Source: Microbacterium croceum
Lineage (GTDB): Bacteria; Actinomycetota; Actinomycetes; Actinomycetales; Microbacteriaceae
NCBI RefSeq assembly: GCF_023091245.1
Contig: NZ_JAHWXN010000002.1
Span: 1-64,000, forward strand
DNA: 64,000 bases
Reading direction: 5' to 3'
The position numbers were made by a program, and so were the translations under genes. The notes under the pieces were generated by a model that saw only the letters and a list, made by a program, of their open reading frames with translations, was not told the DNA's origin and searched no databases. Shown here piece by piece: positions 5,500 through 11,017 of the stretch. The first letter of the stretch is position 1. Each line of letters begins with the position of its first letter.

Positions 5500-5548
5500 A
5501 TAACCGTATCACGACTACTTCTGGATTAATGCGTTATTTGGTTATAGT
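5500..5548. promoter_or_regulatory. Divergent control region, satD-like and DUF1349 genes
   Basis: ATAACC (5500-5505) and GGTTAT (5540-5545) form inverted half-sites between the two divergent genes. A plus-strand -10, TATAGT (5543-5548), lies eight bases before the ATG at 5557. The region is distinctly A/T-rich for this genome. Autoregulation by the SatD helix-turn-helix is an inference. Confidence 0.4.
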
Positions 5549-5556
5549 CTGTGATC

Positions 5557-6147
5557 ATGCCTGAATCGCACATCATCCCTTGGTCCGAGGGGGCGTGGAC
5601 CCACGCCCCGCAGCACACCGCCGAAACCGCGGACGCGCATCTCGACGTCACCGCCGTCGAAGGCAGCGACGCCTGGCGGCACACCGCCTACGGCTTCGTG
5701 CACAACACCGAACACGCCCTGCTCACCCCGCTCGCGGTGGGCGAGGCGATCGAGGTCTCGTTCCGAGCGTCCTGGGACGGTCAGTTCGACCAGGCCGGCA
5801 TCTTCATCCGCATCGACGACGAGCACTGGGTCAAGACCGGAGTCGAGTTCGCCGACGGTCACCTCGGGCTCGGCGCCGTGGTCACCGACATCCGCTCGGA
5901 CTGGTCGGTCGGCTACGTCGACGACTGGCTCGAGAGCGAGATCACGGTGCGCGTCAGCCGCTGGGCCGATGCCCTGATCATCCGCGCCAAGGCAGACGAC
6001 GGCCCCTGGCGCCTGGTGCGCGTGGCACCGTTCTCCGGAGAGTCGGATGCCGCAGCCGGACCGTTCCTCGCGGCACCGATGCGCGGGGATCTCACCGTGC
6101 GCTTCATCCGGTGGGAGCGGTCGGCCGCCGACGTCGACCTGCACTGA
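5557..6147 (+). CDS. DUF1349 domain protein (concanavalin-like fold)
   Basis: A 196-residue soluble protein matching the DUF1349 family, a beta-sandwich fold related to concanavalin-A lectins and glucanases with no established reaction. Typical blocks are FRASWDGQFDQAGIFIRID, WVKTGVEF and ITVRVSRWADALIIRAK. There is no signal peptide. The ATG at 5557 is preferred over an in-frame GTG at 5551 because TATAGT at 5543-5548 would place transcription start on the ATG (leaderless). Confidence 0.8.
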   Translation: MPESHIIPWSEGAWTHAPQHTAETADAHLDVTAVEGSDAWRHTAYGFVHNTEHALLTPLAVGEAIEVSFRASWDGQFDQAGIFIRIDDEHWVKTGVEFADGHLGLGAVVTDIRSDWSVGYVDDWLESEITVRVSRWADALIIRAKADDGPWRLVRVAPFSGESDAAAGPFLAAPMRGDLTVRFIRWERSAADVDLH

Positions 6148-6200
6148 GCGCGGCCGGTTCGCCCGACGGATCTCCGTCACGGGAACCCCGCACAGGCCCG

Positions 6201-6320
6201 ACGGATCACGGAGACGATGACGGATCACGGACGATGTGCCGACATTTGCTCCGTGATCCGTCAGGACCTCCGTGATCCGTCAGGACCTCCGTGATCCGTC
6301 AGAACCTCCGGCATCAGTCA
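6201..6320. repeat. Upstream GATC-core repeat cluster of DUF559 locus
   Basis: One forward copy, TGACGGATCACGGA (6218-6231), faces three inverted copies of the 19-bp unit TCCGTGATCCGTCAGGACC starting at 6250, 6269 and 6288, plus a degenerate fourth at 6307. An extra partial copy lies at 6200-6212. The forward and first inverted copy form a perfect 14-bp stem with an 18-base loop. The spacing is exactly 19 bp and there are no unique spacers, so it is not CRISPR. Confidence 0.9.
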
Positions 6321-6419
6321 GAGCCGCCCGTCCTCCACACCGCGGCGCACGAAGGACCTATCCCCCGAACGCGGATCTGGGCGTCGACGGTCCCCCGCGA
6401 TCGCAGCAGGGTGGAGCTC

Positions 6420-7265
6420 ATGCTCTCCGCCCACGACACCATCCGCGACCTCGGGGGCATCGCCCGAGGGACGCACCTCCAGACGCTCGGCTTCACCCGG
6501 CAGCACCTCGCTGACCAGGTGAAGCGAGGCACGATCCAGCGTGTGCGACCGGGCGTCTTCGCGATACCCTCGCTTGCCGATGACATCCGCAGCGCGATCG
6601 CCCACGGCGGTGCGCTCAGTTGCGTGAGCGTGCTGCGGTCGCACGGGATCTGGGTGCTTCCCGACGAGACCGGGCCGCACGTCTGGCTCGGCCCGAGTCA
6701 GCACGCTCTCGCGCACCCGCACTGTCGCTGCATATCGCACTACTACGGCGGGACGCCGGTCCCAGGCGCGGCGAGCATCGAGCGTGCGCTGCTGCATCTG
6801 CGACGGTGCGCCGGCGACGAGGCGTTCTTCGCCGCGTATGAATCGGCTTGGCGCATCGGAAAGCTCTCTCGTGCCGCGCGAGATCGGATACGCGCAGCAC
6901 TGCCGCGAGTCGCGCGATGGCTGGTCGATCTTGCTCGCCCCGACGCTGACAGCGGTCTCGAATCGCTCCTCCGGCTGCGACTCCACCTGCTCGGCATCCG
7001 AATCGGTTGTCAGGTGACGATCGTCGGGGTGGGGAGAGTCGATTTCGTCATCGCTGGCAGGATCATCCTCGAAGCGGACGGCGAGGAGAACCATGGCTCA
7101 TCCGACAAACGCCACCGCGACCGGGTTCGGGACACGGCCGCATCCCGACTCGGCTACGAGACCCTGCGATTCGACTACGCGCAGATCGTCCACGACTGGC
7201 CCACCGTGCAGGCAGCCATCCTCGGCGCGATGCGACGCGTTCGCCCGGCCGCCGCCCGGGCATGA
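6420..7265 (+). CDS. AbiEi-like N-domain plus DUF559 (VSR-like) nuclease-fold protein
   Basis: A 281-residue protein in two parts. Residues ~1-50 (IRDLGGIARGTHLQTLGFTRQHLADQVKRG, then RVRPGVFAIP) resemble the winged-helix domain of AbiEi-type antitoxins. The C terminus (VDFVIAGRIILEADGEENHG, then RDRVRDTAASRLGYETLRFDY) matches DUF559, relatives of Vsr mismatch nicking endonucleases, with the D...E-x-D core retained. No partner toxin is adjacent. The ATG at 6420 follows GGTGGAG; an upstream in-frame start at 6291 would run through the repeats. The TGA stop (7263-7265) is the first triplet of the downstream repeat array. Solitary genes of this type are frequent in Microbacteriaceae; the function is unproven. 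Confidence 0.75.
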   Translation: MLSAHDTIRDLGGIARGTHLQTLGFTRQHLADQVKRGTIQRVRPGVFAIPSLADDIRSAIAHGGALSCVSVLRSHGIWVLPDETGPHVWLGPSQHALAHPHCRCISHYYGGTPVPGAASIERALLHLRRCAGDEAFFAAYESAWRIGKLSRAARDRIRAALPRVARWLVDLARPDADSGLESLLRLRLHLLGIRIGCQVTIVGVGRVDFVIAGRIILEADGEENHGSSDKRHRDRVRDTAASRLGYETLRFDYAQIVHDWPTVQAAILGAMRRVRPAAARA

Positions 7266-7422
7266 CAGATCCCGGAACGGATGACAGATCACGGAACGGA
7301 TGACAGATCACGGAACGGATGACGGATCGCGGAGCGGATGACAGATCCCGGAACGGATGACAGATCACGGAGAGTTTCGCGGAGATCCTTCGTCGAATCG
7401 TCCATTTCTCCGTGATCCGTCA
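7263..7422. repeat. Downstream GATC-core tandem repeat array
   Basis: Five head-to-tail 19-bp units of the form TGACAGATCACGGAACGGA start at 7263, 7282, 7301, 7320 and 7339. A sixth partial copy is at 7358-7371, and one inverted copy, TCCGTGATCCGTCA, at 7409-7422. The inverted copy is identical to the upstream cluster. Units differ by only one to three substitutions, implying recent amplification or homogenisation. Confidence 0.92.
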
Positions 7423-7459
7423 GCCGTGAACCACCGACCGGGTCGTGGACCGACGCGAT

Positions 7460-11017
<3,558 letters not shown>

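Follow-up and report, generated by a model that had tools for sequence, protein, structure and literature searches.

A DUF559 gene of Microbacterium croceum and the two palindromic repeats that bracket it appear, on balance, to form one unit of a nuclease system that resembles RAYT/REP systems and is built on an unrelated enzyme. The gene lies in a stretch of 64,000 nucleotides (the window), for which the original prediction had described a single repeat core clustered on both sides of one gene with a 19-bp tandem period, and had suggested that it may be an undescribed repeat-associated element of Microbacteriaceae recalling REP/RAYT. We found the clustering as described, and the comparisons below support the wider claim, with the emphasis shifting from the 14-mer core to the architecture in which it is arranged.

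The DUF559 gene and its flanking repeats

Of the 21 window matches to the 14-mer (up to three mismatches), 15 fall at positions 6199–7429, and all five exact copies lie within 6218–7422. Shuffled sequences gave 11.6 matches on average, and 21 was reached by 1 of 100 shuffles. The repeat period is 19 bp, and the element that underlies it is a palindrome of ~84 bp with four half-sites (forward, 5 nt, forward, ~18 nt, reverse, 5 nt, reverse), hereafter called a quad. The features of the locus are as follows.

5551–6147, forward strand: DUF1349 gene (DUF1349, 179 bits), the neighbor that marks the orthologous site
6199–6282, no strand assigned: upstream quad, with forward units at 6199–6212 and 6218–6231 and reverse units at 6250–6263 and 6269–6282
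6288–6320, reverse strand: two additional reverse units of the upstream block, 6288–6301 (exact) and 6307–6320 (three mismatches)
6321–6419, forward strand: leader of 99 nt, from the upstream block to the start codon
6331–6339, forward strand: TCCTCCACA, the first conserved leader box, intact and DnaA-box-like
6358–6366, forward strand: CTATCCCCC, a degenerate sequence where the second leader box would stand
6420–7265, forward strand: DUF559 gene (281 aa), with an AbiEi_4-like winged helix, a Cys-rich middle, and a Vsr/DUF559-type nuclease domain (Pfam, conserved catalytic positions)
7263–7371, forward strand: six forward units repeating every 19 bp in tandem, of which the first overlaps the DUF559 stop codon
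7409–7422, reverse strand: lone reverse unit ending the downstream element (repeat matches)
7460–8350, reverse strand: 3' part of a neighboring gene that we take to be argH, present in all 30 genomes examined

The upstream block consists of a perfect quad (52/52) and the two additional reverse units, so that forward units begin at 6199 and 6218 and reverse units at 6250, 6269, 6288, and 6307. The downstream block is a quad distorted by tandem expansion, and the element model matches it at 7337–7424 on both strands in a covariance-model search of the M. croceum genome. Upstream copies are mostly inverted (four of six) and downstream copies mostly forward (six of seven), but the two blocks are built on the quad and are more than plain inverted and forward arrays.

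As DNA, four of the elements fold strongly into hairpins with two stems (z from −3.7 to −8.4), but recognition of the duplex element is just as possible as recognition of the hairpin. The elements were also considered as RNA, and this reading was rejected: their base pairs showed no covariation above shuffles in the M. croceum alignment, and the window at 5500–8000 gave no Rfam match at E ≤ 1. On these grounds, we treat the elements as DNA sites.

The gene, which runs from an ATG at 6420 to a TGA at 7263–7265, encodes an apparent AbiEi_4-like winged helix joined to a Vsr-like nuclease. The DUF559 match scores 32 bits (cut-off 20.6), and the AbiEi_4 match scores 22–23 bits, under its cut-off of 25; in a 31-member family set, DUF559 is matched in all 31 and AbiEi_4 in 28 (E ≤ 0.01). 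Among solved relatives, 3hrl scored best (E 0.0018). The putative active-site positions are strongly conserved in 113 aligned homologues (E in 112, D in 113, D in 113, H in 110, and D in 113); four Cys positions score 112, 93, 95, and 113. DUF559 proteins are Vsr-like nucleases by description in the available text of PMC12907096, and it is by the residues listed there that we tentatively equate these positions with the Vsr active site. Family members are probably DNA-cutting proteins. With dN/dS values of 0.03–0.24 in the 14 closest homologue pairs, the DUF559 gene is under purifying selection. Among the mechanical ORFs of the window, neither a toxin gene, AbiEii included, nor a methyltransferase gene lies beside it, its neighbors being the DUF1349 gene and argH.

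Dispersed copies, gene-specific half-sites, and coevolution

In the M. croceum genome, TGACRGATCACGGA has 46 matches with up to one mismatch, and the reversed control has none. Fourteen genome copies were aligned, with GACG and CGGA as their best-kept parts, and a covariance model built from the alignment gave 17 confident sites at E < 2e-8, namely the 14 copies used for training, which it recovers by construction, plus three others, including the downstream block of the DUF559 gene. Two of the 17 sites bracket the DUF559 gene, and 15 are away from any such gene. Compared with mechanical gene calls, 9 of 13 dispersed copies are wholly intergenic and 4 overlap a called end by 11–22 nt; they lie mostly behind gene ends, between genes of the same direction. 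There were four site pairs at most 2.3 kb apart, one being the flanks of the DUF559 gene itself, against 0.16 expected.

The other three pairs, spaced closer than random placement predicts, flank one or two ordinary genes each (L010:2447-4766, L013:2481-3884, and L020:2515-4065). One set of enclosed genes has no Pfam match, another comprises a glyoxalase and an AraC-type gene, and the third a metallo-beta-lactamase-fold and a TetR-type gene. Contig C2 makes up 20% of the genome yet holds 9 of the 17 quad sites.

Do such dispersed copies mean that the repeat has no link to DUF559 genes? The other DUF559 homologues of M. croceum carry no quads of this sequence and at most partial palindromes, and these bare homologues together with the off-gene sites would, taken alone, speak against a link. 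They are offset because family genes tend to carry a half-site of their own, and the idea of a repeat without a gene link was dropped once architecture rather than sequence was searched. The original prediction had named genome-wide repeats lacking such a link as the outcome that would count against it; the repeats are indeed genome-wide, whereas the link is present, in that the architecture brackets homologues.

A search with the element model under strict filters covered 58 genomes including M. croceum, 35 of the same genus and 23 outside it. It matched 15, all among the 35, and none of the 23. In the loci first compared, DUF559 homologues lay beside elements in four other genomes (G002, G008, G014, and G029). 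Far from consistently lacking the repeats, orthologues have them: the quad architecture stands on both sides of the syntenic gene in G014 and in G029, and brackets many remote homologues as well.

We then scanned for the quad layout regardless of half-site sequence at loci picked by protein similarity. Among the protein-similarity matches listed (at least 74 loci), a quad was found upstream in 34, downstream in 26, and on both sides in 26, and this first scan gave 6 further matches in 348 kb of more distant flank. Once further loci had been added and duplicates removed (n = 120), quads stood upstream at 60 of 120 loci, downstream at 51 of 118, on both sides at 47 of 118, and on at least one side at 63 of 118, whereas mostly coding control windows (n = 1074) had them in 1.5%; the loci may be biased toward bracketing, as four of the five search-profile rows were genes first noticed near elements.

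The association varies with protein identity. At 55% identity or more to the window protein, 41 of 47 loci have a quad upstream and 34 of 47 on both sides, and in this group the association between gene and repeat is close to certain. Below 38% identity, 15 of 16 loci have a quad on at least one side. At 38–55%, homo-quads occur on at least one side at 7 of 55 loci; here, the match between the two flanks exceeds that of 99% of mismatched pairs in 22 of 53 cases (L117 being inflated by N runs), and of 12 such loci inspected, several have palindromes with unlike outer and inner half-sites, the inner resembling GACACGCCGG. A sequence-free palindrome test (score 16) was positive on at least one side at 40 of 45, 35 of 53, and 15 of 16 loci in the high, middle, and low groups, compared with 3.0% of 132 control windows and, for the flanks of a different gene, 1.7% of 58. 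In G002, one DUF559 homologue (L076:2387-3324) is frameshifted near its 3' end and flanked by quads of its own type.

Outside Microbacteriaceae, family members occur in 15 of 23 genomes from other families of the order. Flanks were usable at 20 of the 21 loci there, and tentative matches of upstream to downstream at ≥40 were obtained in four (G036, G045, G053, and G041), with orientation set by stop count, which may misplace some minus-strand loci; the match in G053 is not clearly palindromic. Two remote homologues, L266 (G036) and L285 (G041), have long matching palindromes on either side, the latter with the same quad architecture.

The half-sites themselves are specific to each gene. Across 35 genes with good quads on both sides, they range from GACGGATCACGGA and CCCGATCTGCTGA to ACACATGTCAGCC and ACGGATGTCGGG, and the mean similarity of upstream half-sites to those downstream of the same gene was 0.78, compared with 0.50 between genes. 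The gene's own downstream quad was the best match of the upstream one in 24 of 35 (permutation p ≤ 1e-4), and two genes ranked their own only 13th and 18th. Element distance correlated with whole-protein distance (Mantel r = 0.69, p = 2e-4) and with residues 1–165 (r = 0.71; partial 0.66 with the nuclease part held constant, p = 2e-4). The nuclease part showed no correlation when the N-terminus was held constant (r = 0.01, p = 0.40), which is the weaker evidence because this part varies less (0.28 compared with 0.45) and gives less power. Half-site sequence thus evolves along with the protein's N-terminal part; the exact 14-mer varies, and the architecture and the gene-specific matching are the conserved features.

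The leader is also patterned. In 24 of the 35 genes, the upstream quad ends 95–102 nt before the start codon. The motif TYNTSCACA is found in the leader of 30 of 48 genes in the high-identity group, 12 of 56 in the middle group, and 4 of 16 in the low group, and in 0.6% of 1574 control windows; its TSCACA parts peak at −84 and −57, with a spacing of 27–28 nt. These boxes resemble the actinobacterial DnaA box, TTGTCCACA.

Orthologous sites, dispersal by type, and possible explanations

Empty sites had been proposed as a check, and they exist in relatives. The DUF1349 gene stands downstream of argH in 9 of 30 genomes: the site between them is filled with quad, gene, and quad in three (G014, G029, and G000, which is the M. 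croceum genome), is empty in five (G001, G002, G005, G021, and G022), with the genes 5–33 nt apart, and holds a solo, partly decayed quad in G034. In G029, the quads reach within 7 and 5 nt of the neighboring stop codons. A second site, before a gene that is presumably cysS-like, has a quad at one place in G000, G014, and G005. Among the other 27 genomes, G002, G022, G033, G034, and G026 have the same upstream neighbor and no recognized quad (G002 may keep a remnant, and G026 was viewed less closely), and the rest have another neighbor. In the three species with this quad (L018:2455-2537, L044, and L058), it overlaps the end of the gene before the cysS-like gene and supplies its stop codon.

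The DUF559 gene is inherited in place. Surroundings are common to 55 of the 60 closest homologue pairs (sides measured), and one pair, L086 and L158, is 74% identical in unrelated surroundings. The 120 loci included no near-identical gene copies from a single genome, plasmid and phage collections gave no homologue at 1e-15 or 1e-8, and no target duplication was recognized by eye at the argH–DUF1349 and cysS-like sites, where the relatives are divergent.

Quads of several types are dispersed in other genomes. G029 has two bracketed genes, of types GACGATCCSCCGA and GGACGGATGTCGGG (the second being L187), and both types also occur elsewhere in that genome. Matches to the GGACGGATGTCGGG type number 25 in G029; G002, G022, and G034 have two apiece, G033 has one, and 30 of the 35 genomes have none. 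The CCCGATC pattern has 29 matches in G001 and 11 in G014, both with genes flanked by that kind. It has 15 in G006, largely tandem units of related sequence with no gene linked to them here, and 0–5, mostly with three mismatches, in each of the remaining 31 genomes; the reversed control gave 2 in G006 and 1 in G027. In G004, a gene is bracketed and the CCCGATC type is confined to the two flanking copies, with no dispersal. One array of tandem 19-bp units in G006 (contig C11, L302:1450-1900; CCCGAACGGCGGA type) has no family member found beside it. In G020, the ...CTCGGA part of the dispersed elements is similar to the flank of one homologue of that genome.

G005 and G034 contain dispersed GACG-type elements and no homologue bracketed by that type: the 24 flanks of the 12 homologues listed for them hold one exact GACG-N5-CGGA core, with never more than one per flank. 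At the genes themselves, such cores number 5 + 2 in G000, 4 + 4 in G014, and 0 + 0 in G029, because the G029 core ends in CCGA. Gene presence and cognate dispersal thus go together in G000, G001, G014, G029, and G020, whereas G004 (gene only) and G005 and G034 (elements only) are contrary cases. Half-site uniformity was 0.900 in G000, 0.892 in G014, and 0.868 and 0.949 for the two G029 types with a gene, and 0.835 in G005 and 0.859 in G034 without one; these values are few and overlap.

Could the nuclease spread the quads that flank it? From the sequence comparisons, a mechanism that spreads quads is probable, and we infer that the quads may be mobilized. It is quite possible, if by no means assured, that actinobacteria harbor a second, independently evolved kind of repeat-spreading nuclease: a winged-helix/Vsr-type nickase that recognizes the half-sites of its own quads, copies the quad through the chromosome, shifts its specificity together with the copies, and is expressed under DnaA control. 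In such a system, the N-terminal winged helix and Cys-rich module would bind the half-sites, and the C-terminal Vsr-like domain would nick DNA at or beside the element, perhaps after extrusion of a hairpin whose two stems are separated by an internal loop of 5 nt. As the nicked palindrome is repaired or replicated, quads would be copied to near or distant intergenic sites, rarely with the gene carried along, and the two DnaA-box-like leader sites might tie expression to replication.

An autoregulator, which we consider unlikely, would explain part of the picture. The winged helix would bind the upstream quad as its operator, the downstream quad would be a terminator, the dispersed quads would be a regulon or further terminators, and the nuclease would act elsewhere. 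The AbiEi-type N-terminus, to which specificity maps, the nearly fixed distance between upstream quad and start codon, and the strong hairpins are all consistent with this. However, a matching copy also stands downstream, most high-identity genes having quads on both sides, the quads bound the unit where relatives show an empty site, and the dispersed copies, mostly behind gene ends, come and go.

The filled, solo, and empty states of the argH–DUF1349 site, the quads ending so close to stop codons in G029, and the unrelated surroundings of L086 and L158 are what an ordinary insertion sequence would produce, with the DUF559 protein as transposase, the quads as terminal repeats, and the solo quads as MITE-like remnants. 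We regard this as distinctly improbable, given that, among the loci compared, orthologues are found in place and recent copies at new places were not seen, near-identical copies within a genome among them; target duplications and plasmid or phage copies were likewise not found at the sites and in the collections searched.

Still less support exists for a defense or toxin–antitoxin locus, in which the nuclease would be a toxin or restriction enzyme and the repeats would protect, regulate, or encode an antitoxin RNA. PADLOC does detect AbiEi similarity (best E 6.7e-5), and Vsr-like nucleases are documented both in DNA repair and next to methyltransferases, according to the available text of PMC12907096; but the window has no toxin or methyltransferase beside the gene, the repeats have neither RNA covariation nor an Rfam match, and matching copies lie far from the gene, which makes this reading very improbable. 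It is barely credible that the DUF559 gene is a bystander of a true RAYT/REP system with its transposase elsewhere, for although the arrangement resembles the one in the available text of PMC2817692, Y1_Tnp (PF01797) had no match at E ≤ 10 in the M. croceum genome (10 of 14 control genomes match), and the bracketing quads go with DUF559 genes and have coevolved with the N-terminus that these encode.

Comparison with known systems

RAYT/REP is the standard case of a nuclease with its own palindromes, and it rests on HUH chemistry. The DUF559 system shares with it (REPtrons and REPINs included) a gene between two palindromic repeats, intergenic dispersal, cognate matching with coevolution, in-place gene inheritance, local clusters, and tandem expansions. 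As described in the available text of PMC2817692, RAYT genes are always flanked by two inverted REPs, coevolve with them, and correlate in presence with repeat number; of these traits, the DUF559 system has the flanking in a large part of the family, the coevolution, and, in part, the correlation of presence with abundance. On the other hand, its enzyme is of the winged-helix plus Vsr/PD-(D/E)xK type instead of HUH Y1, its repeat is the four-half-site quad of ~84 bp instead of a 20–40 bp hairpin, it has about 10–20 copies per genome instead of more than 100, and the GTAG tag of REPs does not occur in the consensus of the 14 aligned M. croceum copies. The DUF559 system works like RAYT/REP and is not a member of it.

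Other systems are similar in single respects. CGTC-tagged REPs are also palindromes between genes, partly with a CGTC/GACG motif and no known transposase, but according to the available text of PMC3733652 they are smaller, with 8–9 bp stems and 4–5 nt loops, and occur mainly in alpha-Proteobacteria; the terms Microbacteri-, Actinobacteria, Leifsonia, and Clavibacter are absent from that text. Vsr/DUF559 nucleases (E. coli Vsr, Caulobacter VsrA, and the solved relative 3hrl) share the nuclease domain and the likely active-site residues, whereas here the domain is joined to a winged-helix module and occurs together with palindromes. The AbiEi antitoxin of the AbiE type IV toxin–antitoxin systems shares the winged-helix N-terminus, but the DUF559 protein is fused to a nuclease and has no toxin gene next door in the window. 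Filled and empty sites and solo copies are common to insertion sequences and MITEs, from which the DUF559 system differs in the in-place orthologues, the lack of near-identical copies among the loci seen, and the absence of a recognized target duplication. A search of titles and abstract openings, with subscription journals and preprints outside its scope, found no literature linking DUF559 proteins to palindromic repeats.

A natural history similar to that of RAYT/REP (bracketing, matching, coevolution, dispersal, and in-place inheritance) is thus seen in a system that uses a Vsr-type fold and whose recognition sequences are far more varied. As the specificity of each gene goes with its N-terminal module, the family offers a natural library of protein–DNA recognition, and it can serve as a testable model for the joint shift in specificity of an enzyme and its many genomic sites. 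Furthermore, it suggests a function for many genes annotated only as AbiEi/DUF559 proteins. Taken as a whole, the system seems to be a counterpart of the mobile REP/RAYT repeats that arose independently.
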